Virus record (IMG/VR): IMGVR_UViG_3300044712_000022
Span: 1-40,507 of that record
From: a virus
Direction: 5' to 3' (one strand)
DNA length: 40,507 nucleotides
The position numbers and the translations under genes are program-made. Below, in pieces: positions 3,429 to 30,099 of the stretch. Below the pieces are notes generated by a model, which searched no databases, was not told the DNA's origin, and worked only from the letters and a program-made list of their open reading frames with translations. How positions within the stretch are numbered: the stretch's first letter is position 1; the number at the start of each line of letters is the position of its first letter.

Positions 3429-4088
3429 ATGGCATATACACGTGGTACAAGTGCTAACATTATCGTTGGTGCAGCCGCACTCTTTACCTTCGAAGCAGGT
3501 GAAATGACAGATGCAGACCTTCCAAACGCTGTTGACGCTACTGGTTACAAGGAGACTCTCTCAGGAGATGCCGACTTCCGTAACGTAGGTTATACAAGCA
3601 ATGGTCTGGAGCTGCAGTTCCAACCAGACTTCGGTGAGGTGAGCGTTGACCAGGTTCTTGACGTTGCAAAGCTCTACAAGCAGGGCATGCAGGTTAACCT
3701 GAACACAACATTCGCAGAAGCTACTCTGGAGAACCTCCTCGTAGCTATTGCACGGCCACAGACTGACGCATTCGTTGCTTCTTCGGGAGCATTCAACGGT
3801 GAGGACGTTCTGAATCTTTCAGCAGGTGAACTCGGTGAGTGTCCTGTTGAACGAGGTCTGGTCGCTGTTGGTCCAGGAACTGGTGATTGCGAGGCAGGTT
3901 CTGCTCTTGAGCGAATCTACGTTGCATATCGTGCTCTCTCGATTGAGAGTGTAACAGTATCTGCAAAGCGTGACGAAGCTACAATGTTTGAAGTTTCGTT
4001 CCGTCTCCTGCCAAACGACAGTGGTTCCTACGGCAAGCTCGTAGACCGTACTGTTGCTGCAGGCAACAAGCCAGGATTCCCTAGCTAA
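3429..4088 (+). CDS. Major tail tube protein
   Basis: A 219-residue protein, beta-rich with Ala/Gly/Thr-rich stretches and the repeated polar strands typical of phage tail tube subunits. It polymerises into the tube around the tape measure. Evidence is the position before the tail chaperones and tape measure, a good GAGGTGA site at 3416-3422 six bases before the ATG, a strong terminator straight after, and highly-expressed-type codons like those of the capsid gene. A TATAAT at 3370-3375 in the upstream gap could be its promoter, but no -35 box is seen. The three Cys in the C-terminal half are unusual for a tube protein but not disqualifying. Confidence 0.8.
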   Translation: MAYTRGTSANIIVGAAALFTFEAGEMTDADLPNAVDATGYKETLSGDADFRNVGYTSNGLELQFQPDFGEVSVDQVLDVAKLYKQGMQVNLNTTFAEATLENLLVAIARPQTDAFVASSGAFNGEDVLNLSAGELGECPVERGLVAVGPGTGDCEAGSALERIYVAYRALSIESVTVSAKRDEATMFEVSFRLLPNDSGSYGKLVDRTVAAGNKPGFPS

Positions 4089-4108: not shown

Positions 4109-4142
4109 GCCGTCCAGGGTAATACCTGGGCGGTTTTGTTTT
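4109..4142 (+). terminator. Intrinsic terminator after the tail tube gene
   Basis: A 9-bp GC-rich stem (4110-4118 with 4125-4133, one G-U pair) with a six-base loop is followed by a T-rich tract, the clearest factor-independent terminator in the window. It separates the tail tube transcript from the chaperone gene, whose promoter starts immediately afterwards. Confidence 0.85.
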
Positions 4143-4150
4143 GGTACAAT
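4142..4150 (+). promoter_or_regulatory. Extended -10 promoter for the long tail chaperone
   Basis: TGGTACAAT, an extended -10 element (TGnTAnAAT type), directly abuts the terminator. The -10 hexamer is 4145-4150. Six bases later comes the ATG at 4157, so transcription should start on the start codon itself. There is no -35 match, as is acceptable for an extended -10 promoter. Confidence 0.55.
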
Positions 4151-4156
4151 TGAATG

Positions 4157-4834
4157 ATGGCAACTACTATTTATGAGTCTGGATTTATTACCACAATTGA
4201 CGGGGTAGAGTTATACATCACGCCATTAAAGATAAAATACTTAAGAGACTTTATGCTTAAGTTTGAAGATGTAAAGATTGCACGTAATGACAATGACGCT
4301 ATTACAGCTTTGGCAGAATGCGGTTTGATAACTATGAGACAGTACTGTCCAGACATCAAGACCATGGAAGACTTTGAAGATAACTTTGACATGCCAACAA
4401 TCTACACACTTCTTAAACTTTCTGCTGGCATTGACGTAAAACCAGAAAAACAAGAGTCTGTCAAAGAACAGGCAACAGAGAGTGGATCTAGCTGGGAAAC
4501 ATTAGATCTTGCACAGCTTGAGTCTGAGGTATTTTTGCTGGGTATATGGAAAGACTATGAAGAACTAGAAACATCTCTGTCTATGCCAGAACTAGTAGCA
4601 ACACTAGAGTCTAAAAGAGAGCTAGACTATCAAGAGAAAAAATTCTTAGCAGCTATGCAGGGTGTAGATCTTGACGAACAGTCTGGCAAAAAGAATGCCT
4701 GGGAAGAGATGAAAGCTCGTGTATTTAGTGGTGGTCAGGCTGCTGATGCAAACGACATCTTGGCATACCAAGGACAGAACGCAGCCAAGGCAGGGTTTGG
4801 AATTGGCAATGGTTTGGCCTATGAAAAGTGGTAG
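4157..4834 (+). CDS. Tail assembly chaperone, long form (G and T domains in one frame)
   Basis: A 225-residue protein that combines two parts. Residues 1-95 are the G-type chaperone domain (a beta-strand pair around TTIDGVELYITPLKI, then helices). The C-terminal part, around FLLGIWKDYEELETSLSMPE and DYQEKKFLAAMQGVDLD, is the T-type extension that contacts the tail tube. In most long-tailed phages this product needs a programmed frameshift; here it is one uninterrupted frame. Two ATGs are in tandem (4154 and 4157). I chose 4157 because it lies exactly six bases after the -10 box and no ribosome binding site exists, which implies a leaderless message. Codon use is AT-ending, unlike its short paralogue downstream. 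Confidence 0.85.
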   Translation: MATTIYESGFITTIDGVELYITPLKIKYLRDFMLKFEDVKIARNDNDAITALAECGLITMRQYCPDIKTMEDFEDNFDMPTIYTLLKLSAGIDVKPEKQESVKEQATESGSSWETLDLAQLESEVFLLGIWKDYEELETSLSMPELVATLESKRELDYQEKKFLAAMQGVDLDEQSGKKNAWEEMKARVFSGGQAADANDILAYQGQNAAKAGFGIGNGLAYEKW

Positions 4835-4850
4835 TTTATCAATACCCCTA

Positions 4851-4859
4851 TGTTATAAT
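4851..4859 (+). promoter_or_regulatory. Extended -10 promoter for the short tail chaperone
   Basis: TGTTATAAT, a perfect extended -10, lies in the gap between the two chaperone genes. The predicted start near 4866 gives a leader of about 20 bases holding AAAGGAGG at 4875-4882. No good -35 is visible. The short chaperone thus has its own promoter and a near-consensus ribosome binding site. Confidence 0.6.
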
Positions 4860-4886
4860 TAAATGTAAACCTTTAAAGGAGGACTA

Positions 4887-5204
4887 ATGGCGACCACCGT
4901 CAATGAAACAAAGAAACTGCAACTTATCGATGGAACCGAAATCGAAGTTCGACCCCTCAAGATCTCACTGCTCAAGCCCTTCATGGCAAAGTTTGAGAAG
5001 ATTGCAGAAGTTGCAACCGATAACGAAAAGTCTATGGACATCCTCATTGAGTGTGTACAGATTGCTATGAAGCAGTATGCACCCGATGTAGCTGATGACA
5101 AGGACAAATTGGAGGATATCCTGGATCTTCCTACAGTCTACAAGATTGTAGAAGAAGCTTCTGGCGTTAAGATGTCAGATGTTACTGGCATGACTGCCGA
5201 GTAA
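4887..5204 (+). CDS. Tail assembly chaperone, short form (G domain only)
   Basis: A 105-residue paralogue of the first ~95 residues of the preceding gene. Shared positions include the IDG.E....PLKI segment, FM.KFE, the EC..I.M.QY.PD block and the PT.Y segment, with near-identical spacing. It has no T extension, and only 21 bases follow before the tape measure, with stops in all useful frames, so no frameshift extension is possible here. It has AAAGGAGG four bases before the ATG and highly-expressed-type codons. I infer that it supplies the abundant G component while the long gene supplies the scarce GT component. Confidence 0.85.
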   Translation: MATTVNETKKLQLIDGTEIEVRPLKISLLKPFMAKFEKIAEVATDNEKSMDILIECVQIAMKQYAPDVADDKDKLEDILDLPTVYKIVEEASGVKMSDVTGMTAE

Positions 5205-5225: not shown

Positions 5226-8200
5226 ATGGCTGATATCGAATCCAATATTAATCTTGATATTGATGCTTCTGGTGCTCTATCTACACTGAAAGAGCTTCAG
5301 AGGCAGATATCAGTCTTCCAGACCACGATGGCTAAAAGTGGAGCCATCTCTAATGCACGTCTGTCTGACATGCAGACCAATCTGGTCAACAACATTAATT
5401 CAACTGGTCAATTTACCGCCAGTATTCAAAGAGTAAAAACTACTACAGAATCTTTTACTCAAGCACTTGAGAAGAATAAGCTGTCAATGGGACAGTACTT
5501 TAGATATTCTCTTGGTGCCACAAAGACCTTCGGTAAAGGTTTTAAGACAGAGTTTGACACCATTGAAAAGGTGGCTCGTGAAAGAGTAAAGACTCTTCAG
5601 ACTCAATATATCAAGCTTGGTCGTGACGCATCTGGTGCAATGCAAGCTATTGCTGTTCGCCCTCAAGTCCTTGACATGAAGGATCTGGGAACACAAACTG
5701 CTATTGCTGCTCAGAAGGCACAGCTGTTCAACCAGCTTATGGCACAGGGTTCTACAAACCTACTTAACTTTGGTAAGAACACTCAGTGGGCTGGTCGTCA
5801 GCTCATGGTTGGTTTTACAATTCCTCTTGGAATTATGGGTGCAGCAGCAGCCAAGGAATTCAAGGCTATCGAAGAACAGGTAATTCGTCTTGAACGTGTT
5901 TACGGTGACTTTACTACAACCATGGCAGACACTGAGCACATTACTCAGCAGATTAAAGACCTAGGTGGAGAGTTTACAAAGTATGGCGTTGCCGTGTCTA
6001 AGACTATTGGTCTTGCTGCAGATGCAGCGGCTATGGGTAAAACTGGTGCAGACCTTGTAGCTCAGGTAGCAGAAGCAAACCGTCTTGCCGTTCTTGGTGG
6101 GGTAGATCAAGCACAGTCTCTTGAAACAACTATCTCTCTTACAAATGCTTTTGGTGTAGCCGCAGACCAGCTATCTGGCAAGATCAACTTCCTTAACGCA
6201 GTTGAAAACCAAACCGTTACATCTATTGAAGACCTCACAGAGGCTATCCCCAAGGCTGGTCCTGTTGTCCAGCAACTTGGTGGTAACGTAGAAGACCTTA
6301 CATTCTTCCTTACAGCTATGAAGGAAGGTGGCATTAACGCATCTGAAGGTGCTAACGCTCTTAAGTCTGGTTTGGCATCGCTTATTAACCCAACTGGTGA
6401 AGCTGCAGAAATGCTTAATGGTTTTGGTATTAACCTGCAAGGTATCGTAGAGGCAAACAAGGGTAACGTCCGTGGTATTGTTGTAGACTTCGCTAAGGCA
6501 CTTGATACACTAGACCCACTTAACCGTGCACAAGCTATTGAGCAGTTGTTTGGTAAGTTCCAGTTCTCTCGTCTATCGACACTGTTCCAGAACGTAATTG
6601 CCGAGGGTAGCCAAGCAAGCCGTGTTCTTGATCTAACCAAAGCATCAGCAGCAGAGCTAGCATCCCTATCTGAACGAGAGCTTGGACGTATTGAGGCATC
6701 TCCACTATTTAAGTACCAAGCAGCTATTGAAAACTTTAAAGCAGCTATTGCTCCTATTGGTGAAGAGTTTATGAAAGCTGTTACTCCACTGATTAATTTT
6801 GGTACACAAATTCTTGAAGGTTTTAACAGTTGGTCTGACGGAGCAAAGCAGTTTGCTATTATTGCTGTAGGTGCAGTAGGTGCCATTGGTCCCGTTCTTC
6901 TTATGACCTTTGGTTTGCTGGCTAATGGTTTGGCTAACATTGTCAAGGGTGTGCTGTTTGTACGCAACGGATTTAAAGGTCTTGGTGGGCAAAGTAATGT
7001 TCTAACCGAACAACTTAGCTATATGAATACAGAACAGCTTGAAGCTGCATCGATTTCTGCATCTCTTAATCAGGTTCACAACAACCTAATTCAAACATTT
7101 ACAGCAGAAGCTGGCACTGTAAGAAACCTTGCAGCTGCGTATGGTGCAGCTATTGCACAACAGGGTGCATTCATGGGTCCAATCACAACTCGTGGTGGCG
7201 GAATGAAGAAGCCAAAGGGATTTGCGGCTGGCGGAATCGTTCAAGGTCCTGGAACTGGTACATCAGACTCTATTGGTGCATTGGTATCAAAGGGTGAGGC
7301 AATTATTCCTGCCAAATCGGTTAAGAAAAATCCTGGCGTTGTTGCAGGACTTATTGCAGGAAACCTTCCACGTTTTGCTGAAGGTGGATACATTGGAAAT
7401 ATTTATCCAGAGTTTGCACTTAGAATGCAGAAGGATACAGAAAACATGTCTCAGCAGGCAGGTAAGACAAACCTTGCTAGCGTACTTGCTCCATTGTCTT
7501 TGCGTGCTGGAGAAGCACAGGGCCTCATGCCAACACAAACGAGCATTAATGCAGGTAAGTTTGATGCAATATCTAAGGAGCTGGAGTCTGTAACTAGCCG
7601 ATTTGTTGATCAGGTAAATAAGAACTTTGATACAACATATGCAGATATTAAGGACAGCAATGAAAGGTTTGCAAAGTCTTGGACAGCAGCTGGAAAGACT
7701 GTAGAAAAAGAAGTCAACAAGATAGGCGATCAAGCTACACGTGGTGCAGTAAGAAAAACTTTTGGTTTGGATGAAGATGTTTATGCTACCGCAGCAACAG
7801 AGGTTCGTAGAGCTGGAGATAAGAGACTGACACGAGGAAGAAAGTTAGTTCTAAATGAAGGCGTTAAGTCCTACACTTCAATCAGACCTGCTGCTAAGAG
7901 AATGTATGAAAGAATTTCTGGACAGTCTGCAGCAAACATGCAGATGGGACACGTATTTGGTTCTCGTCAAGCAGACCTTTCAGAGCTTGCAAACAGTCCA
8001 AAGGCAACTCCAGCATTAAAGAGAGCAATGAAGGCTCTTGGCTTCAATATTGTAGAGGAAGCAGCTACAGCAATTAACAAGGCCTCTGGTGCAGCATCAC
8101 CAGCAAAGAAGTTTATTAATGCAGCAGGTAAAAACATTGTAGATGGTGCCCTTCAGCCAATTGAAAATTCAAAAGCTAGAGCAGAAAAAGCTGGAAACGC

Positions 8201-11200
8201 TATAGTTCACAATGTTACAAGTGGAACAAGTCAGGCAGGACGTTCACGTCGTGCAGCCACTGGAGAATCTACACCACTTCCAACAGGATATTTACAAGCA
8301 AGACTTGATGAACAGAAGAAGCAACAGCGTGCCGAAAAGCGTGCAGCTAGAATGGCATCTCTTAGATCTGCAATGTCTCCAGGAAAACTTGGTATGGCAG
8401 GTATGGTTGCAGGTGGAGCTTTATCTGCTGGCTCAATGATGGGTGGCCCTGTTGGAGATATTGCAGGACAGCTTGGTGGCCCACTTATGGCAATTTCTGG
8501 TATTACCTCTGTGCTGTCAATGATTCCTGGCCCAGCAGGTCTTGCTGTTGGAGCCATTGGTGGCCTTGCAGCAGGAATTATGATCTTGAATGCAGAGGCT
8601 GAAAAGGCTAAGCAGGCAACTAGGGATCAGGCCGCAGCTGTTGGTGCAGGTACAAAGGCTATGGAAGCTTTTGCTGCTGCTGCAGGTACAGTAAGTCCAA
8701 GTGCAATAGCAAATGCTCGTAGAACAGAAGCAACAAAGACTGGTCAGGCAGAGACAACGTTTGGAGAGTCCTATCTTTCATCCGAAACTGGTGCAGCAAT
8801 GCTTACTGGTATTAGAGGATTCATTGATAGCAATGGTATGGCAGATGCTGCTCGTAAAATATCTAACCAACTTTCAACAGCAGTAGCATCAGGAATTTTA
8901 TCTGCAGAACAGGCAGACTCCATTGCTATGGCTCTTGGTGACCAACTTCAGAGCGATACTTTTGCTATCAACATCATGGGCAAGATGGATGAACTTATTG
9001 GTCCAAACGGTGAAAATGTTGGTAAAGATCCAATCAAGGTTGCTATTGCAATATCTAAAACAGGTGAAAAAGAATTAAACTCATACCTCGACAAAATTAA
9101 TGAAGTGGGCGATATGCCAGCAACACCTGGCTATAACATTTCAGGTGCAGGTATGGCATCTGGTCCTACTAATGTATCTCCAATGTCTCCAGTTGCAAAC
9201 ACAGGTCTTGGTGGTGCAAGAAACAACATGACCATTCAAAAAGCACCAGAAATTATTGCGGCATTTAATGCAATGCAACAGCAAAACCAATTAATGATTG
9301 ATACACAGGATCAGGCAAACGCTAAGGCAGTAGAGCAGCTAATGACTGAGGGTAAGATTGCTGAAGCACAAGCATTGCAAAACACATACTTAACTCAGCG
9401 AAAAGATCTTATTGCTCAAACTCAAGCTTCTACTCAAAACTTCCTAACACAGCTTAAGGGTATGGACCAGTCGGCACGTGACGCACTTGTCTCAGAAGCA
9501 GGAACAGCAGCAAAGGGTGTTTATGCTGGTACAGATCAGGAGGGTGCTGCTAACAAGGCTGTTGACACTTTAACAAAGGGTAGGGCTTCTGCAGAAGCAA
9601 AGATTACATTCTCTGCTGAGCTGGCTTCTGGAGCACTTACCCCAGAACAGCTAAACACAATGTTTGGTTTGTTTGATCAAAATACTGTAGAAGGTGGAAG
9701 ATCCATAAACCTTCTTGCAAACATTAACGCAGCACTTGGCTCTGGCGTTACGTCAGACATTGCAGGACTCTTGCCATTGTTTGGTGACAACGAGGTAGCA
9801 GCTAAAAACTTCCTCGCATCTTTTGATGTAGATAACCCAGAGCAGTTCCAAGAAACTGTAGGCTTGTTCCAAAACCTTCAAATGGGTAATCCAGAACTAG
9901 ACCTTTCCGTATACTTCGATGGCTCGGATGCCGCAATTGAAAGAATGAACTTGCTAATGGATGCAACCTCAAAGCTTAAGGCTATGGCTGCAGAGGGTCC
10001 AATTACAATGGAAAGCGTTATCTCTCAAATCTTCAGCACAGACCCAGGTGCGGCAGCCGCATTGATGGCAAACAATGAATACTTCGCTTCTCTGCCACCA
10101 GAACAAAAGACTGCATATATTCAATACTTCATTACTGCTCGTGACGATGTTTCTGCAAAAGAAGTTAGCAAGTATCTGTCCGATAACAAGATTAGCCTTA
10201 AGGGTAGGTCTGCAGATTCAGCAGAACGTGCTGTAAGTAACGCAGCAAACCAAGTGGCTGCAAGCAAGGCAAAGGGATTCACTCAGCAATACGGATCATT
10301 CATGAACCTTGGCAGCACTGGTACACGCACAGGCGGCGCCGGAGGCGGTGGCGGTGGTGGAGCTGGCGGTGGCGGAGGTGCTGCAGCGGCACCAGAAAAG
10401 CCACCAACATCATTCCTAGATTCATTGGTAAAGGACATAAGAGACTTTACCAGTGCCACACAAGGACTTACAGAAAACTTCCAAGACTCTATGGCAGCTA
10501 TTCGTGCTGCATCTTCTAGTGCATTTGGAGGTTTGTCTCAGCAACTTCGTGGGGTAGGTGTAGGAGAAGATGTAATCTCTATTATGACTGGTATGTCAAA
10601 GGAAGAATGGGATCAGTACAAGGGTCAATTCTTTAACTTCGATGCCGCTGGAAATGTAACAGGATTCAAGGCAGATCTTGCAGCTATTGCAGATAAGCTT
10701 AGAGGTATTACATTAGGTAAGTTTGTTGACGAACAGCAAAAGACTCTTGCAAACCTCGCAAACCAAAACAAGGCACTTACAACGCTTGTTGGTTTGGGTA
10801 TGACTTATGCAAACGCCTACAAGCTTATTGAAGATGCAGCACTTGCAGCAGCCATTGCTAACGCAAAGAGTGCAGACGAGGTTAAAAAGATTATTGCACT
10901 TGCAGAACAGGCACGCAAGGCACAGACTTTAGCAGGTGCAGCATCTAGCGTTGCAGGTACAAATGCCGCTACAGATGCAACTATGGCAGGACTGAAGGCA
11001 CTTGTAAGATTCAATGGAGCACTTTCAGATACTCAGACAGAGGCAATTCTTGCAAGCGAAGACCTGCAGTTAATGCTTGCTAACTTCGACACACTCAGTG
11101 CTGACCAGCTAAAAATTCTTAACGAAGCACTTCAGAAGGCTGCTGATAAAGAAGCTCTTGAGATTAAGATTAAGATGCAGACCAAAGAAGGTATGCAAGA

Positions 11201-12521
11201 GCTGTTTAACGAGGGTATGAATAAGGCAATGGAACAGTTCAGTGCTAAAGAACAAGAGATTAAGTTTAAGTTTAAAGCACTCAAGGATCCTTTCCAGAAC
11301 ACTATTGACTCTTACACAGATAAGATTGAAGATCTTAAAAACTCTGAAAATGGTTTGGATGACCTTGAAGCAGACCTACAACGTATTGGTGATCAAGAGA
11401 TTGACATTAACAAGAAGTACGATGAACGCTATAAGGCCCTTGATTCAATCGCTAAGATTAATGATAGAATGGCTGCTCAACAACGTACACAGCTTAGCCT
11501 TGCAGAAGCCTTGTCTATGGGTGACATTGGTGCAGCTGCTCGTGCAGCAGAAGAGATGCGAGCACAGGATGCAGCACAAGCACTTGTTGACCAACGTGAA
11601 GCATTACAGAAGTCTCAGGAGCTTGAGATTGCTAACCTTATGGGCAAGATGGGACTTACTCGTGAACAGATTGAGGCACGCATTCGTGACATCAATAAGG
11701 AAATCTTCGAGATTCAGGAAAAGCAGATTGAGCCAGCTCAGAGACAAATTGAGCTTCTGGATCGTCAAGAAGAACTTCAGATTAACGGTCTTACTGTTGC
11801 AGGAAAGACCAAGGAAGAGTGGGAAAAGATTAAGAACGGTATTGAGTTGGCTAGAACAAATAGTCAGCAATACACCGAAGCCGTTAATCTTGCTCTCGGT
11901 GTTGCCAATGACCTACAGGCAGCTTGGAAAGACATTGAAAAGCCTAAGCAGACTATTCACACTATTATTGAAAAGCGAATCTCTGAAGCAGAGGCAGCCG
12001 CAGCTGCCAAGCCAGCTACACCAGCTCCAGTAGCATCAACAGCTCCAGCACCATCTGGACCAGTAAAGGATGATGCATGGGTAACCTCGATGGCTAGAAG
12101 AGTTATTCGTGGAGAGTTTGGAAATGGTCAGGCACGTAGAAATGCTCTTGGCGGAGATTACCAGGTTATTCAGGATAGAGTTAACAGAATCTTGTACCAG
12201 GGATATGCTAAGGGTGGACTTGTAGCTAGCTACATGGCTTCTGGTGGACTTACAAAGCCAATGTTTGGTCCAAAGGGAACAGACACAGTTCCTGCAATGC
12301 TTACTCCAGGAGAGTTTGTTATTAAGAAGTGGGCTGTAGATCGATTCGGTGTTGACAATCTTAATGCAATTAACCAAGGAAACTTTGGTAGCGGTTCCGT
12401 GTATAATTATAATATGAGTGTTAACGTCAGGTCCGACGCTAACGCAGATGATATTGCACGTACCGTTATGGCTCAGATCAAACGTGTCGATGCTCAGAGA
12501 GTTCGAGGTAACAGGTTCTAA
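5226..12521 (+). CDS. Tape measure protein
   Basis: This 2431-residue protein spans the tail lumen and sets tail length; at roughly 0.15 nm per residue this implies a tail near 365 nm (inference). A TP901-type tape measure core lies at about residues 245-460. Hydrophobic, Gly/Ala-rich segments are at about 542-575 and 1055-1120, fitting membrane-active parts released on infection. A poly-Gly linker is at about 1702-1717, coiled-coil helices at about 1980-2210, and a Cpl-7-like wall-binding motif at about 2283-2324. Two related Gly-rich motifs with a GE[AF][IV]I core occur near residues 665-715 and 2340-2370. The start ATG follows a GGGGT stretch; no better start exists. It ends in a TAATG overlap with the next gene. 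Confidence 0.95.
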   Translation: MADIESNINLDIDASGALSTLKELQRQISVFQTTMAKSGAISNARLSDMQTNLVNNINSTGQFTASIQRVKTTTESFTQALEKNKLSMGQYFRYSLGATKTFGKGFKTEFDTIEKVARERVKTLQTQYIKLGRDASGAMQAIAVRPQVLDMKDLGTQTAIAAQKAQLFNQLMAQGSTNLLNFGKNTQWAGRQLMVGFTIPLGIMGAAAAKEFKAIEEQVIRLERVYGDFTTTMADTEHITQQIKDLGGEFTKYGVAVSKTIGLAADAAAMGKTGADLVAQVAEANRLAVLGGVDQAQSLETTISLTNAFGVAADQLSGKINFLNAVENQTVTSIEDLTEAIPKAGPVVQQLGGNVEDLTFFLTAMKEGGINASEGANALKSGLASLINPTGEAAEMLNGFGINLQGIVEANKGNVRGIVVDFAKALDTLDPLNRAQAIEQLFGKFQFSRLSTLFQNVIAEGSQASRVLDLTKASAAELASLSERELGRIEASPLFKYQAAIENFKAAIAPIGEEFMKAVTPLINFGTQILEGFNSWSDGAKQFAIIAVGAVGAIGPVLLMTFGLLANGLANIVKGVLFVRNGFKGLGGQSNVLTEQLSYMNTEQLEAASISASLNQVHNNLIQTFTAEAGTVRNLAAAYGAAIAQQGAFMGPITTRGGGMKKPKGFAAGGIVQGPGTGTSDSIGALVSKGEAIIPAKSVKKNPGVVAGLIAGNLPRFAEGGYIGNIYPEFALRMQKDTENMSQQAGKTNLASVLAPLSLRAGEAQGLMPTQTSINAGKFDAISKELESVTSRFVDQVNKNFDTTYADIKDSNERFAKSWTAAGKTVEKEVNKIGDQATRGAVRKTFGLDEDVYATAATEVRRAGDKRLTRGRKLVLNEGVKSYTSIRPAAKRMYERISGQSAANMQMGHVFGSRQADLSELANSPKATPALKRAMKALGFNIVEEAATAINKASGAASPAKKFINAAGKNIVDGALQPIENSKARAEKAGNAIVHNVTSGTSQAGRSRRAATGESTPLPTGYLQARLDEQKKQQRAEKRAARMASLRSAMSPGKLGMAGMVAGGALSAGSMMGGPVGDIAGQLGGPLMAISGITSVLSMIPGPAGLAVGAIGGLAAGIMILNAEAEKAKQATRDQAAAVGAGTKAMEAFAAAAGTVSPSAIANARRTEATKTGQAETTFGESYLSSETGAAMLTGIRGFIDSNGMADAARKISNQLSTAVASGILSAEQADSIAMALGDQLQSDTFAINIMGKMDELIGPNGENVGKDPIKVAIAISKTGEKELNSYLDKINEVGDMPATPGYNISGAGMASGPTNVSPMSPVANTGLGGARNNMTIQKAPEIIAAFNAMQQQNQLMIDTQDQANAKAVEQLMTEGKIAEAQALQNTYLTQRKDLIAQTQASTQNFLTQLKGMDQSARDALVSEAGTAAKGVYAGTDQEGAANKAVDTLTKGRASAEAKITFSAELASGALTPEQLNTMFGLFDQNTVEGGRSINLLANINAALGSGVTSDIAGLLPLFGDNEVAAKNFLASFDVDNPEQFQETVGLFQNLQMGNPELDLSVYFDGSDAAIERMNLLMDATSKLKAMAAEGPITMESVISQIFSTDPGAAAALMANNEYFASLPPEQKTAYIQYFITARDDVSAKEVSKYLSDNKISLKGRSADSAERAVSNAANQVAASKAKGFTQQYGSFMNLGSTGTRTGGAGGGGGGGAGGGGGAAAAPEKPPTSFLDSLVKDIRDFTSATQGLTENFQDSMAAIRAASSSAFGGLSQQLRGVGVGEDVISIMTGMSKEEWDQYKGQFFNFDAAGNVTGFKADLAAIADKLRGITLGKFVDEQQKTLANLANQNKALTTLVGLGMTYANAYKLIEDAALAAAIANAKSADEVKKIIALAEQARKAQTLAGAASSVAGTNAATDATMAGLKALVRFNGALSDTQTEAILASEDLQLMLANFDTLSADQLKILNEALQKAADKEALEIKIKMQTKEGMQELFNEGMNKAMEQFSAKEQEIKFKFKALKDPFQNTIDSYTDKIEDLKNSENGLDDLEADLQRIGDQEIDINKKYDERYKALDSIAKINDRMAAQQRTQLSLAEALSMGDIGAAARAAEEMRAQDAAQALVDQREALQKSQELEIANLMGKMGLTREQIEARIRDINKEIFEIQEKQIEPAQRQIELLDRQEELQINGLTVAGKTKEEWEKIKNGIELARTNSQQYTEAVNLALGVANDLQAAWKDIEKPKQTIHTIIEKRISEAEAAAAAKPATPAPVASTAPAPSGPVKDDAWVTSMARRVIRGEFGNGQARRNALGGDYQVIQDRVNRILYQGYAKGGLVASYMASGGLTKPMFGPKGTDTVPAMLTPGEFVIKKWAVDRFGVDNLNAINQGNFGSGSVYNYNMSVNVRSDANADDIARTVMAQIKRVDAQRVRGNRF

Positions 12522-20559: not shown

Positions 20560-20568
20560 TGCTATAAT
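20540..20568 (+). promoter_or_regulatory. Strong promoter for a leaderless tail gene
   Basis: GTGACA (20540-20545), a 17-base spacer, and the extended -10 TGCTATAAT (hexamer 20563-20568) form a near-consensus sigma-70-type promoter. Six bases separate the -10 from the ATG at 20575, so the transcript should begin on the start codon. The -35 box lies inside the preceding gene. Confidence 0.75.
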
Positions 20569-20574
20569 TGATCT

Positions 20575-21021
20575 ATGGCAAAAGTATCCATTCCAGATCG
20601 TGGACAACCACTTGATCTATCTTACATTTCCCAGCTTGCCGAGGCAGTAAATAATCTTTCTAATCAGCTGTCACCAGTCAACGCTAAGTATACGACGGTA
20701 GACACTGTAAGCAACGGTAAGCAAACTGTAAGAACTTCTGACTCTAGAATTGTTGGTGGATTTATTAATATTACCAATAGCTCTACAAACACTGTGGATA
20801 ATGAGCACGAGTTTTCTTACTCATTCTCAGACTTTGCCTATGCACCAATTGTAACTGCAACTCCAATTATTACTGATACTGCCAACACTCAGGCATCAAA
20901 AGACGTTACCCTGGTTCTGACTAACGTCAGCACAAACAAGGTAGACGGAGTTGTTAAGTTTGGAACAACTGGTGTTGCCTCAATTGGTATTAACCTTCTT
21001 ATTGTCGGTATCCCAGTCTAG
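20575..21021 (+). CDS. Tail tip / fibre-like protein, leaderless
   Basis: A 148-residue protein with an N-terminal helix (about residues 14-33) followed by a beta-rich region. Its C-terminal segments, including FAYAPIVTATPI and the closing ASIGINLLIVGIPV, resemble the small lectin-like or H-type-lectin-like tail components of phages. There is no ribosome binding site; the promoter -10 lies six bases upstream of the ATG. It closes the structural block. The role is inferred from its fibre-like design and position; an adhesin is the most likely job. Confidence 0.65.
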   Translation: MAKVSIPDRGQPLDLSYISQLAEAVNNLSNQLSPVNAKYTTVDTVSNGKQTVRTSDSRIVGGFINITNSSTNTVDNEHEFSYSFSDFAYAPIVTATPIITDTANTQASKDVTLVLTNVSTNKVDGVVKFGTTGVASIGINLLIVGIPV

Positions 21022-25197: not shown

Positions 25198-25205
25198 AAA
25201 CACTT

Positions 25206-25235
25206 GGGGGGCTGGCAGAACACTGCTGGCCCTCC
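25206..25235 (+). terminator. Stable hairpin between ssb and dnaE (attenuator or terminator)
   Basis: A 13-bp stem (25206-25218 with 25223-25235, three G-U pairs) with a four-base AACA loop lies eight bases after the ssDNA-binding gene. There is no T-run after it. It could stop most transcripts or protect the 3' end of the abundant upstream mRNA while letting some polymerase through into dnaE, which has no clear promoter of its own. Confidence 0.6.
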
Positions 25236-25257
25236 TACACTTACGAGAGAGAGATTA

Positions 25258-28200
25258 ATGAATTACGCAGGACTCCACGTTCACACACACTACAGTCTGT
25301 TTGACGGGATTGCCACACCACAGGAATATGTGGACCGAGCAGTAGAGCTGGGTATGCCAGCCATTGCCATTACCGATCACGGTTCGTTGTCTGGACACCG
25401 TGAAATGTATCGTACTGCTAAAGAAGCAGGAATTAAGCCTATCCTCGGTGTAGAAGGATATATGGCACAAGACCGTTTTGACCACCGTGATGCGTCAGAG
25501 CGTGAGCACGTACTTGACATGGTTTACAACCACATTGTTATTCTCGCTAAGAACGAGAAGGGTTTGGAAAACCTCAACAAGCTTAATGAGATTGCTTGGA
25601 CAGAAGGTTTCTTCAAGAAGCCACGTATTGACTTTGAGGTACTTGAGAAGTACAGCGAGGGACTTATTGTTACCTCTGCATGCCCTAGCGGTATCGTAGC
25701 CAAGTCTATCGAGACTGGTGAGCTGGCGGTAGCTAAGGAAAAGATTGAGTGGTTCCACCGTGTATTTGGTGACGACTATTACATTGAGGTAATGCCTCAC
25801 AATGCACCAGAGATTAACAAGACTCTGTTGGAATTGGCAGACGAGTATGGCATCAAGGCCGTTGTAACTCCAGACTGCCACCACTCACACTCTGGTCAGA
25901 AGGAGATTCAGGAGCTTAAGCTTATCCTGAACACTTACTCTAACAAGATTGAGAAGGGTGCAACTTTCGAGAAGTCTCGTGAGAAGGAAAACCTCATGGA
26001 GCGTCTTGACTACCTGTATGGTGCAGACCGTCAGATGTCATTTAATAAGTTTGAGATTCACCTTCTTTCATACGAAGAGATGAAAGCTGCCATGGAAAAG
26101 CAGGGTATTGATCGTGAAGACATCTACCAGCACTCACTAGAGATTGCAGAAAAGGTAGAAGACTATAACATTCAAGACCACCTAGACTTGCTTCCAGCAC
26201 AGTACCTTAAGCCAGATGAAGAGCTACGCTCTATGGCTATGGAAGGTTTAACAGCACGTGGTTTGGACGGTAAGGAAGAATACCTTGCACGTCTAGACGA
26301 AGAGCTAGAGATTATTAAAGACAAGAAGTTCGCTCCATACTTCATGGTTGTACGCAACATGATTAACTGGGCTAAGAAAGAAGGTATTCGTGTTGGTCCT
26401 GGGCGTGGTTCGGCTGCTGGTAGTCTTCTCTGTTATACTCTTGGTATTACAGATATTGATCCGATTGTTCATGGACTTCTGTTCTTCCGTTTTATTAATC
26501 CAGAAAGAAATGACTTTCCAGATATTGATACTGATATTCAGGACTCTCGTCGAGACGAGGTAAAAGAGTATCTAGTTAAACAATACCGTCACGTTGCATC
26601 TATTGCTACCTTCCTTACGTTTAAGGATAAGGGTGTGGTTCGAGACATCTCTCGTGTACTTCACATTCCTCTTACAGACGTTAACAAGGTTTTGAAGACT
26701 ATTGATACTTGGGATGAATACTGCACCTCTAAGACCACCGCATGGTTCCGTGAGAAGTATCCAGAAGTAGAGCAATATGGAGAGCAGCTCCGTGGTCGTA
26801 TCCGTGGTACTGGTATTCACGCTGCTGGTGTTGTTACTGCAAGAGAGCCTATCTTTAAATATGCTCCAATGGAAACTCGTACAGACCCAAAGACTAAGGA
26901 ACGCATTCCCGTTGTTGCTGTAGATATGGGTGAGGCAGAACGCATTGGTCTGATTAAGCTCGATGCTCTGGGTCTTAAGACTCTGTCTGTACTTGACGAC
27001 ACTATTAATATTATTAAAGAGCGTCACGGTGTAGAGATTAAGCCACTAGAAATTGACATGGAAGACCGTCAGGTCTACGAGATGCTTTCTGCAGGTCACA
27101 CCAAGGGTGTGTTCCAGTGTGAAGCTACGCCATACACCAACCTGTTGGTAAAAATGGGGGTAAAGAATCTAGATGAACTAGCAGCCTCTAACGCACTAGT
27201 ACGTCCAGGTGCTATGAACACCATTGGTAAAGACTATATTGCACGTAAACATGGTAAGCAGAACGTTGATTATCGTAACGTCAAGATGAAGGCTTTTACT
27301 TCTGATACCTATGGCTGTATTCTCTACCAGGAACAGGTTATGCAAGCCTGTGTAGAGCTTGGTGGAATGACCATGGCTACTGCTGACAAGGTTCGTAAGA
27401 TCATTGGTAAGAAGAAGGATGCCAAGGAGTTTAAGCAATTCGAAGACATGTTCATTCAGGGTGCTTCACAGTATCTTGGTGAAGAGGGTGCTAAGGACCT
27501 CTGGCACGACTTTGAGGCACACGCTGGATATTCCTTCAACAAGTCTCACGCTGTGGCATACTCTACACTGTCTTACTGGACTGCATGGCTAAAGTATCAC
27601 TACCCACTTGAGTTCATGTTTGCTCTTCTTAAGAATGAGAAGGACAAGGATGCACGCACTGAGTATCTGATTGAGGCCAAGCGTATGGGTATTCCAATTA
27701 AGTTGCCACACATCAACGACTCTGACATTGACTTCAAGATTGAGGGTAAGGGTATTCGATTTGGTCTTGCTGGTATCAAGTACATCTCTAATAATATTGC
27801 AGAAAAGTACATGGCAGCTCGTCCATTCCACTCTTACAAGGAGCTGGAAGAGTTTACCTATGGTAAGGGTAATGGTGTGAATAGTCGTGCACTTAATTCA
27901 CTTCGTGTAATTGGTGCTGCTACGTTCCCAGACAATCCACGTAACGATGACGAGGTTCGAGAGAATCTTTATGAGTACCTAAACCTACCAGAGTTTAACA
28001 TCTCTGTTCCACCACACTTCCACGCCTTTATTAACGAGGCAGAGGAGTACGAGGAAAAAGGTGCATTCATTCTGATGGGTATGGTTAAGAACATCAAGCG
28101 TGGTAAGGGCTGGTCTCGTGTAGAAATCCTTGATAAGACTGGTGTTGTTGGTATCTTTGATGACGAGCAGACCACTATCGAGGCAGGTCGTACCTATATT

Positions 28201-28530
28201 ATTCTTGCTAGTGATAACAGGATTACATCTGCTATCCCCGTAGACGAAGCCAAGGGATCTGACAACGGTGTTGTTAAGTTCCTGAACTATCGTCAGTTAC
28301 CATACACAGATGATGAAATGTATGTCATTGCCTTTAAGCCTCGTGTAACTAAGGCTGGCAAGAAGATGGCTTACATGGTTCTTGCAGACACAGCTCGTGA
28401 GCTGCACTCTGTGACGGTATTCCCCACACAGTTCCCCAAAGCCTATATGAAGGTCAAAGAGGGACAAGCATACAAGTTTGAATTTGGTAAAACCAAAGAC
28501 GGCACAATAACAATGAATGAGGTATATTAA
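25258..28530 (+). CDS. dnaE: DNA polymerase III alpha subunit (DnaE)
   Basis: A 1090-residue C-family replicative polymerase. An N-terminal PHP domain carries His7, His9, Asp40-His41, Glu66, His92, a Cys in SACPSG (about 143) and Asp/His in PDCHHSHSG (about 205). The palm has GPGRGSAAGS near 380, the catalytic PDIDTD at 421-426 and the third Asp at 569 in KLDALGLK. A helix-hairpin-helix lies near 870 and an OB fold near 940-980. I start at the ATG 25258, where HVHTHYS follows at residue 7 as in bacterial DnaE; an upstream in-frame TTG at 25204 lies next to the hairpin and is unlikely. The gene ends overlapping the next ATG. Confidence 0.95.
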   Translation: MNYAGLHVHTHYSLFDGIATPQEYVDRAVELGMPAIAITDHGSLSGHREMYRTAKEAGIKPILGVEGYMAQDRFDHRDASEREHVLDMVYNHIVILAKNEKGLENLNKLNEIAWTEGFFKKPRIDFEVLEKYSEGLIVTSACPSGIVAKSIETGELAVAKEKIEWFHRVFGDDYYIEVMPHNAPEINKTLLELADEYGIKAVVTPDCHHSHSGQKEIQELKLILNTYSNKIEKGATFEKSREKENLMERLDYLYGADRQMSFNKFEIHLLSYEEMKAAMEKQGIDREDIYQHSLEIAEKVEDYNIQDHLDLLPAQYLKPDEELRSMAMEGLTARGLDGKEEYLARLDEELEIIKDKKFAPYFMVVRNMINWAKKEGIRVGPGRGSAAGSLLCYTLGITDIDPIVHGLLFFRFINPERNDFPDIDTDIQDSRRDEVKEYLVKQYRHVASIATFLTFKDKGVVRDISRVLHIPLTDVNKVLKTIDTWDEYCTSKTTAWFREKYPEVEQYGEQLRGRIRGTGIHAAGVVTAREPIFKYAPMETRTDPKTKERIPVVAVDMGEAERIGLIKLDALGLKTLSVLDDTINIIKERHGVEIKPLEIDMEDRQVYEMLSAGHTKGVFQCEATPYTNLLVKMGVKNLDELAASNALVRPGAMNTIGKDYIARKHGKQNVDYRNVKMKAFTSDTYGCILYQEQVMQACVELGGMTMATADKVRKIIGKKKDAKEFKQFEDMFIQGASQYLGEEGAKDLWHDFEAHAGYSFNKSHAVAYSTLSYWTAWLKYHYPLEFMFALLKNEKDKDARTEYLIEAKRMGIPIKLPHINDSDIDFKIEGKGIRFGLAGIKYISNNIAEKYMAARPFHSYKELEEFTYGKGNGVNSRALNSLRVIGAATFPDNPRNDDEVRENLYEYLNLPEFNISVPPHFHAFINEAEEYEEKGAFILMGMVKNIKRGKGWSRVEILDKTGVVGIFDDEQTTIEAGRTYIILASDNRITSAIPVDEAKGSDNGVVKFLNYRQLPYTDDEMYVIAFKPRVTKAGKKMAYMVLADTARELHSVTVFPTQFPKAYMKVKEGQAYKFEFGKTKDGTITMNEVY

Positions 28531-28862: not shown

Positions 28863-29086
28863 TGACAATTACAGTATATACAAAGCCATCATGCGTACAG
28901 TGTGAAGCAACCAAGCGTAGCCTTGACAAACTCGGACTAAAGTACGAAACAATTGATGCAACTACCGATGAAGTAGTCTACGAGATGCTGGTAGAAAAGG
29001 GTTTTAAAGCCATGCCAGTAGTAAATGCTAACGGTGAGTGGTGGTCTGGATTCCAGCCAGACAAGATTAATGGGTTGGTGGACTAA
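28862..29086 (+). CDS. nrdH: NrdH-redoxin (glutaredoxin-like)
   Basis: A 74-residue thioredoxin-fold protein with the redox pair Cys11-Val-Gln-Cys14, the cis-Pro segment AMPVV near residue 52, and WWSGFQPD near 61, the last typical of NrdH. It supplies electrons to class Ib ribonucleotide reductase, which this phage encodes about 7 kb downstream (nrdI, nrdE, nrdF). The gene is thus separated from its usual operon and lies instead within the replication block, with start and stop overlapping its neighbours. Confidence 0.92.
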   Translation: MTITVYTKPSCVQCEATKRSLDKLGLKYETIDATTDEVVYEMLVEKGFKAMPVVNANGEWWSGFQPDKINGLVD

Positions 29087-30099
29087 TGACAACAATTGAA
29101 GAAGCTTTAGCACAGCTTGATCCAAAGCTGCGTAAGAAGATTTCTGCGGCTGTTGGAATTAAGACTGAGTTCCAGAAGACACCAAGTCCAGGACTGAATC
29201 GTGCACTCGGTGGTGGCTTCCCCTATGGTAGACAGGTTCTGCTGTGGGGGAGCAAGTCATCAGCCAAGTCTTCTCTGTGCCTACAGACTATTGGTTTGGC
29301 ACAGAAGGAAGGTAAGCTGTGTGCATGGATCGATGCAGAGATGTCTTACGATGAAGAGTGGGCTAAGAGTCTTGGTGTAAACACCGAGCAGCTTATCTAC
29401 TCTGAGGCACGCAGTATGAATGACATGGTTGATGTTTGCGTCGGTCTTCTTAAGGCTGGTGTGGACATGATTGTCATTGATAGTATTAGTTCTCTTTTGC
29501 CAGCGGTATACTTTGAGAAAGACTCTGATGAACTTAAGCAGCTAGAGAACACTAAGCAGATTGGTGCAGAGTCCAAGGACCTTAAGCACGCATGGCTTAT
29601 GATTAACTATGCTAACAACAAGGTAAAGCCTGCACTCATTGTAGCTATTTCACAGTCACGTAACAACATTGGTGGCATGTTTGCTACAGCACAGCCTACA
29701 GGTGGTTTGACAACACAGTTCATGTCTTCTACTATTGTTAAGCTGTTCTCCTCTACATCAGACAGTCAAGCTATCAAGGCTAAGATTCCTGTAGGGGACA
29801 AGCTTATTGAGCAAAAGGTTGGACGACGTGTGCGTTGGGAGATCTTGAACTCTAAGACATCCCCTCCAGGTGAAAGTGGCGAGTACGACTTCTACTTCCG
29901 TGGTGACAAGATTGGTGTCGATGCTGTAGGAGATATGGTTGACACTGCAGAAATGCTGGGTCTTGTAGAGCGTACAGGTGCTTGGTATATCATGCCAGAT
30001 GGCTCTAAGGTACAGGGGCGTGATGCTTTTGTGACTAAGGTTCGTGAGGACCAGGAGCTGTACAAGTCTATTGAGGAGAAGCTCAATGGGGCGTTATAA
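29086..30099 (+). CDS. RecA/UvsX-like recombinase
   Basis: A 337-residue RecA-family ATPase. Walker A is at residues 55-62 (GSKSSAKS), where Ala60 replaces the usual Gly before the catalytic Lys61; Walker B is MIVID with Asp132, and SQSRNNIGGMF near 190 marks the DNA-binding loop region. T4 UvsX also departs from the Gly at this place, so activity is likely. It would drive strand exchange, repair and recombination-dependent replication. A C-terminal acidic helix follows. It is tightly packed after nrdH and its 3' end overlaps the next gene by 14 bases. Confidence 0.88.
   Translation: MTTIEEALAQLDPKLRKKISAAVGIKTEFQKTPSPGLNRALGGGFPYGRQVLLWGSKSSAKSSLCLQTIGLAQKEGKLCAWIDAEMSYDEEWAKSLGVNTEQLIYSEARSMNDMVDVCVGLLKAGVDMIVIDSISSLLPAVYFEKDSDELKQLENTKQIGAESKDLKHAWLMINYANNKVKPALIVAISQSRNNIGGMFATAQPTGGLTTQFMSSTIVKLFSSTSDSQAIKAKIPVGDKLIEQKVGRRVRWEILNSKTSPPGESGEYDFYFRGDKIGVDAVGDMVDTAEMLGLVERTGAWYIMPDGSKVQGRDAFVTKVREDQELYKSIEEKLNGAL

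Follow-up and report, generated by a model that had tools for sequence, protein, structure and literature searches.

The -1 frameshift by which the tail assembly chaperones G and GT are made is, after the work of Xu et al. in 2004, said to be conserved in long-tailed phages. In phage lambda, where the two proteins come from programmed -1 frameshifting (reviewed in PMC5009743), the G:GT ratio of about 30:1 is critical (PMC5009743), and a mutant of the lactococcal phage TP901-1 with G and T permanently fused forms normal-looking, non-infectious particles (PMC4493119). Taken together, these observations prompt one to ask whether phages need the slip itself or just the ratio that it provides. The question is raised anew by a virus record of 40,507 bases with 43% G+C (the window, by which we mean this whole stretch of DNA), in which the two products appear to be encoded by two genes. 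The genes concerned are the following.

3429 to 4088, plus strand: major tail protein gene (PHROG 2175 and 885), given for context
4157 to 4834, plus strand: putative long tail assembly chaperone GT, 225 amino acids, from the ATG at 4157 to the TAG ending at 4834
4433 to 4492, plus strand: linker between the G and T domains of GT, a single frame without slippery heptamer
4887 to 5204, plus strand: putative short tail assembly chaperone G, 105 amino acids, from the ATG at 4887 to the TAA ending at 5204, a paralogue of the N-terminal domain of GT
5226 to 12521, plus strand: tape measure protein gene, 2431 amino acids (PHROG 10030, E 1.6e-82, for the first 500 residues)

The chaperone genes sit between those of the major tail protein (annotated as such in the orthologue at the equivalent position of Streptomyces phage Coruscant) and of the tape measure protein, as expected of G/GT. 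By analogy, the former protein would be the expected partner of the T domain and the latter that of the G domains. The locus shares this position with lambda-type G/GT, as well as a T extension of about 100 residues and an N-terminal domain common to the short and long products (known here from the genes alone). Unlike lambda-type loci, it has no slippery site and no frame change, but two genes with separate start signals. In GT, which has an additional in-frame ATG at 4154 ahead of the one at 4157, residues 1-98 form the G domain and the T domain starts at about residue 113; the linker between them is the place at which frameshift-type relatives have their slippery heptamer and frame change.

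A sequence-only reading of this locus had located the two genes correctly, described the first as G plus T in one uninterrupted frame, and taken the second for a G-only paralogue of its neighbour's N-terminal part, proposing that the two proteins be aligned and their structures predicted. The comparisons bear it out. Both G domains match PHROG 10504 and the T part of GT matches PHROG 10474. GT and the second protein align with an E value of 7.6e-20 and 38% identity, while a profile-profile alignment of the two G regions (hhalign) spans 98 columns with an E value of 1.8e-34 and 36% identity; across comparisons, identity between the two domains is 36-39%. These two E values rule out a chance resemblance, and a chance arrangement is ruled out by its recurrence in 203 loci (see below). 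GT and short G hold the only two copies, no third G domain being found in the window. AlphaFold2 models of the two domains, built from 40 and 38 relatives and of moderate confidence (mean pLDDT 77 and 73), predict an identical order of elements, two strands and four helices. The top entries of a viral structure library are common to both models and include an annotated tail assembly chaperone, to which the short G model is similar with a Foldseek E value of 9.8e-7 and a TM score of 0.75. Among solved structures, no relative turned up in sequence searches based on G and T profiles, and Foldseek searches of the PDB with the models gave nothing significant; Pfam gave no match above its cut-offs. 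Homologues in Streptomyces phages are annotated as tail assembly chaperones, and we infer the same function for the pair from sequence. Both genes are under purifying selection, with a median dN/dS of 0.09 each in close pairs of GT genes and of short G genes.

The nearest isolated phages are Streptomyces phages of the Stanwilliamsviridae. Their terminases are about 55% identical to that of the window over the full length, the window being a 40.5 kb fragment. The source is probably a Stanwilliamsviridae-like phage of an actinobacterial host, the host being suggested by phage kinship alone. Among its other genes are those for a DNA polymerase of its own (25204-28530), with kinship to PHROG 405, and for a UvsX/RecA-like recombinase (29086-30099). 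In all seven Streptomyces phages examined (Coruscant, BillNye, Jay2Jay, Yaboi, Gilson, Faust and Mildred21), T lies in the -1 frame after G, and the annotation of Yaboi carries the joined long form. Identity to the window is 26-32% between their G proteins and the G domain of GT, and 39-44% for T. The gene order is the same, and a terminator-like hairpin and a promoter likewise precede the chaperone gene. Unlike the window, these phages have a single gene that begins with a Shine-Dalgarno start and changes to the -1 frame for T, and they lack a second G. At the place that corresponds to SWDELNLAQLEAE in the -1 frame of Jay2Jay, the GT of the window runs on unbroken as GSSWETLDLAQLES.

To these eight loci were added 240 from two IMG/VR protein scans and one T-profile scan and one more from a genome scan, giving 249, in which G and T profiles were run on all frames. 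A second G lies downstream in 203 of the 203 in-frame GT loci with enough DNA, and in 0 of the 37 sufficiently long loci whose T is in the -1 frame, among them the Streptomyces Stanwilliamsviridae; the remaining nine loci are interrupted by a contig end. No exception to this exchange was seen among the loci with enough DNA. Moreover, nine frameshift-type records, including three complete phage genomes, were searched over their whole length, and each proved to hold a single G domain. The relatives with a single frameshifted gene that the sequence-only reading had suggested seeking thus exist, as sister and outgroup forms, and its proposal that a duplication has replaced the frameshift is supported. 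The single match from the genome collection, L170, lies on a 109.9 kb contig (CAINGU010000031.1) binned as an uncultured cyanobacterium, which carries a frameshift-type chaperone locus and the tape measure gene of the phage group; it is probably a mis-binned phage contig. In several two-gene loci (L022, L044, L140 and L150) the N-terminus of short G is divergent or slightly longer than the aligned start.

Most frameshift-type loci have a canonical slippery site. In 31 of 41, the G/T overlap opens with a canonical heptamer (C CCA AAT/C or G GGA AAC) in the correct phase, and the other 10 have C CCG GAA at the equivalent place. The frameshift-type loci nearest to the two-gene clade (L115, L187, L208, L198 and L200) use GGGAAAC and more distant ones CCCAAAT/C or CCCGGAA, so that the type of slippery heptamer has changed during evolution while its position has not. 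Runs of GCG/GCA codons follow the heptamer in frameshift-type loci such as L188-L196, even at 35-39% G+C; this end of G could be constrained by the overlapping T frame.

In the two-gene loci these sites are gone. Among 144 distinct ones, the canonical heptamers (CCCAAAY or GGGAAAC) were found in 1 GT linker and in no 3′ end of short G, and no conserved motif was found in the linker. After short G, no -1 or +1 frame of at least 60 codons is open in any of the 144, and in the window the tape measure gene starts at 5226, which leaves no space for a T part; the absence of room or open frame had also been read from the window by itself. A hidden frameshift in either gene of the window was rejected, slippery heptamers and an alternative T frame being absent. 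One could still imagine that a frameshift or other recoding event within the GT gene yields G by early termination, the second gene being an extra, and some XXXYYYZ heptamer does occur in 22 of the 144 GT linkers, mostly as A-runs. But the heptamers conserved in relatives are lost from this place, the linker has no motif of its own and no locus has a T frame after short G, and we give this possibility hardly any credence.

A different objection is that short G is a paralogue with a new role, for example structural or regulatory, and that tail assembly is served by GT alone or by GT cleaved to G. The two G domains are old, fall into separate groups and share only 36-39% identity, and proteolysis of GT would be invisible in DNA. 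On the other hand, short G is nearer to the G proteins of frameshift-type phages than the N-terminal domain of GT is, and it retains their promoter and Shine-Dalgarno layout and their codon quality (see below). It is present wherever an in-frame locus has room and missing from all frameshift loci, as would be expected if it supplied the lost product, and the fused-only TP901-1 mutant (PMC4493119) speaks against a GT that suffices by itself. We regard a new role as improbable.

The history of the change can be read from three sets of trees. In a tree of 63 T domains the in-frame form is one group, found in 98% of bootstrap trees and nested within frameshift-type phages, with the frameshift locus L208 as its immediate sister (99/92). 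The tape measure protein, a neighbour outside the trait, gives a tree (first 300 residues) that agrees on one change; L187, L198 and L208 adjoin the in-frame clade, the exact branch having 64% support. On this evidence the in-frame form has a single origin inside a grade of frameshifting phages. Since the two-gene loci all go back to one event, their agreement reflects maintenance rather than repeated origin. In the G-domain trees, the N-terminal domains of GT all form one group (97/97), and a second group unites all short G proteins with the closest G proteins of frameshift type. This separation points to one old tandem duplication without later gene conversion and to a faster early change in the GT copy.

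The reverse order, in which the frameshift-type relatives derive from a two-gene ancestor by loss of its upstream copy, draws on the clustering of the G proteins of L115, L187 and L208 with short G (97/78, and 98/94 in a second G tree). However, uniting all frameshift G proteins in one group is not rejected (AU p 0.415), the in-frame clade is nested among frameshift-type phages in the T tree and also, weakly at the exact branch, in the tape-measure tree, and a -1-frame T with a slippery heptamer would have had to be re-created repeatedly. This makes the reverse order very improbable.

Each of the two genes has start signals of its own. Those found in the window are listed here.

4110 to 4141, plus strand: intrinsic-terminator-like hairpin (4110-4133, dG -17.6) after the major tail protein gene, then TTTTGTTT, with the T-rich tract at 4134-4141
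4142 to 4150, plus strand: extended -10 element TGGTACAAT of GT, with the transcription start predicted on the A of the ATG at 4157
4851 to 4859, plus strand: consensus extended -10 element TGTTATAAT of short G, with TATAAT in 123 of 129 distinct relatives
4875 to 4882, plus strand: Shine-Dalgarno sequence AAAGGAGG of short G, present in 98% of 129 distinct short-G upstream regions

The GT upstream regions (98 distinct ones listed) share the order of hairpin with T-run, extended -10 and ATG. By strict criteria, a comparable hairpin precedes 73% of the 137 distinct GT genes, 52% of the 33 G genes of frameshift type and 3% of the short G genes. The end of the GT extended -10 lies 5-9 nt from the ATG in 127 of 130 distinct sequences and exactly 6 nt in 91; with a spacing of 6 nt, transcription would start at the A of the ATG. 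With this spacing, and with a Shine-Dalgarno sequence in none of the 130 upstream regions, GT is probably leaderless; a -10 element standing where a Shine-Dalgarno sequence would be, close to the ATG, is a trait that it shares with leaderless genes of mycobacteria (PMC4633059). A second leaderless-looking gene of the tail region is the ORF at 20575-21021 (148 amino acids, no PHROG match; 20560-21021 with its upstream signal), where a consensus extended -10, TGCTATAAT, ends 6 nt before the ATG. Short G has the opposite arrangement: a near-consensus TGnTATAAT (the GT promoter has TATAAT in 41 of 130) is followed by 24-37 nt to the ATG in nearly all of the 129 relatives, and the window has only two TGNTATAAT sites on its plus strand, one of them this promoter. 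The frameshift-type G genes are similar, with 22-40 nt from -10 to ATG, a Shine-Dalgarno sequence in 94% and often a terminator hairpin ahead. Comparison of the layouts thus suggests that short G keeps the ancestral type of start, and that GT keeps the ancestral terminator and has lost the leader. A two-hexamer sigma-70 consensus scan of the window listed neither promoter, as both rely on an extended -10 without a good -35, and a simple consensus terminator scan did not list the hairpin at 4110-4133; such scans miss signals that comparison reveals.

Codon usage points in the same direction. With the major tail gene of each phage itself as the reference, the median codon adaptation of short G is 0.598 and that of the tape measure gene 0.533; GT reaches 0.481, the same value as its G domain taken alone, and its T domain 0.473. 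Locus by locus, short G scores higher than the G domain of GT in 122 of 130 cases (Wilcoxon p 4e-22, the loci being related by descent). The major tail gene and short G prefer CGT, ATC/ATT, CTT and AAG; GT has AGA/AGG, ATA, TTA and AAA instead. In frameshift-type relatives G has 0.585 and T 0.485. Codon quality thus seems to follow the expected amount of product, and by these values the codons of the G domain seem to have sunk to the level of T when it joined GT. The sequence-only reading had credited the short gene with a strong ribosome-binding site and codons of the highly expressed type. The Shine-Dalgarno sequence is there and short G (0.538) surpasses GT (0.473) in the window, but it stays below the tape measure gene (0.582) and is not exceptional.

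With homology, arrangement, loss of the slippery site, single origin, start signals, codon difference and purifying selection established at the level of sequence, we consider it very likely that G and GT arose by tandem duplication from a frameshifted ancestor, each copy with its own start signals and G in excess. The ancestor would have been one gene, with terminator, promoter, Shine-Dalgarno sequence, G, a -1 slip and T, as in the Streptomyces relatives of today, whose G part was duplicated in tandem. The upstream copy would have become a continuous G-T frame without slippery site, keeping the terminator and losing the leader, so that the AUG is probably the very 5′ end of its mRNA; T would have been lost from the downstream copy, which kept, or received, a promoter and Shine-Dalgarno leader of the ancestral type. 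An excess of G may then result from its strong ribosome-binding site and better codons together with a promoter close to consensus. GT would be held lower by a promoter that is more variable and insulated by the terminator, by its leaderless start and by codons of poor quality. A large excess of G over GT is what codon adaptation and start signals suggest; as an argument against separate control, readthrough from the GT promoter would feed G too. As in lambda, G copies may coat the tape measure protein, with the T domain of GT recruiting the tail tube protein; to judge from the non-infectious TP901-1 mutant, a fused GT would need a separate G beside it. Duplication and initiation signals have very probably replaced frameshifting as the device that sets the ratio, the ratio and the start sites themselves being those predicted from sequence.

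How the ratio is set is less certain. That promoters, type of start and codons fix it, as had been proposed from the window, agrees with the conservation of these signals in more than 100 distinct loci, but the ratio is a predicted one, and the assumption that a leaderless start is a weak one does not hold in mycobacteria, where leaderless translation is about as robust and efficient as leadered translation (PMC4633059). Promoter strength and codons may therefore outweigh the missing ribosome-binding site in determining the level of GT, and whether the leaderless start lowers it is uncertain. It is accordingly a serious possibility, if to our mind clearly less than an even chance, that two genes do replace the frameshift with the ratio coming from transcription alone or from mRNA decay, the leaderless start being incidental to the evolution of a compact promoter; this is a sub-variant of the duplication reading, and our confidences in the two overlap. 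The robustness of leaderless initiation just mentioned would fit, as would the contrast between the two promoters (TATAAT in 123 of 129 against 41 of 130) and the terminator so often found ahead of GT. Against it, none of the 130 distinct GT upstream regions has regained a Shine-Dalgarno sequence, and with the spacing mostly 6 nt the leaderless layout of GT looks selected. At this point we may speculate that selection for 70S-type initiation keeps GT leaderless, so that the G:GT ratio can follow the state of the host ribosomes instead of being fixed by a slippery site, but we hold this to be unlikely.

The principle of two chaperone genes is not new, as two precedents show. Some T4-like phages are described as having a separate short gene and an in-frame fused long gene without frameshift (PMC10885494, citing Vladimirov, Gautam and Davidson 2022, Virology 566:9). 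These are contractile-tailed phages of a far lineage, and the comparison is with that description. The frameshifting relatives indicate an origin from within Stanwilliamsviridae-like phages, independent of the T4-like chaperones as described. In Microbacterium phages of cluster EA, several subclusters are described as expressing two chaperone ORFs without evident frameshift and others as using a frameshift (PMC7302621, PMC11659878); the ORFs appear there as separate, and these descriptions do not report a fused long form with a duplicated short one. As far as shown by the literature searched, four things are new: Stanwilliamsviridae-like phages as a probably independent case; sister lineages identified as frameshifting, slippery sites included; a second G that stands in for the frameshift without exception; and start signals of opposite kinds, leaderless and Shine-Dalgarno, conserved on the two genes.

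For annotators the locus is a warning that a frameshift is not to be expected beside every tape measure gene. It is also an unusually clear case of a recoding event resolved by gene duplication, the two copies contrasting both in start signals and in codon quality. The frameshift is gone from a whole environmental lineage of phages whose sisters still use it and have been identified, cultured Streptomyces phages among them, so that the change-over can be traced step by step.
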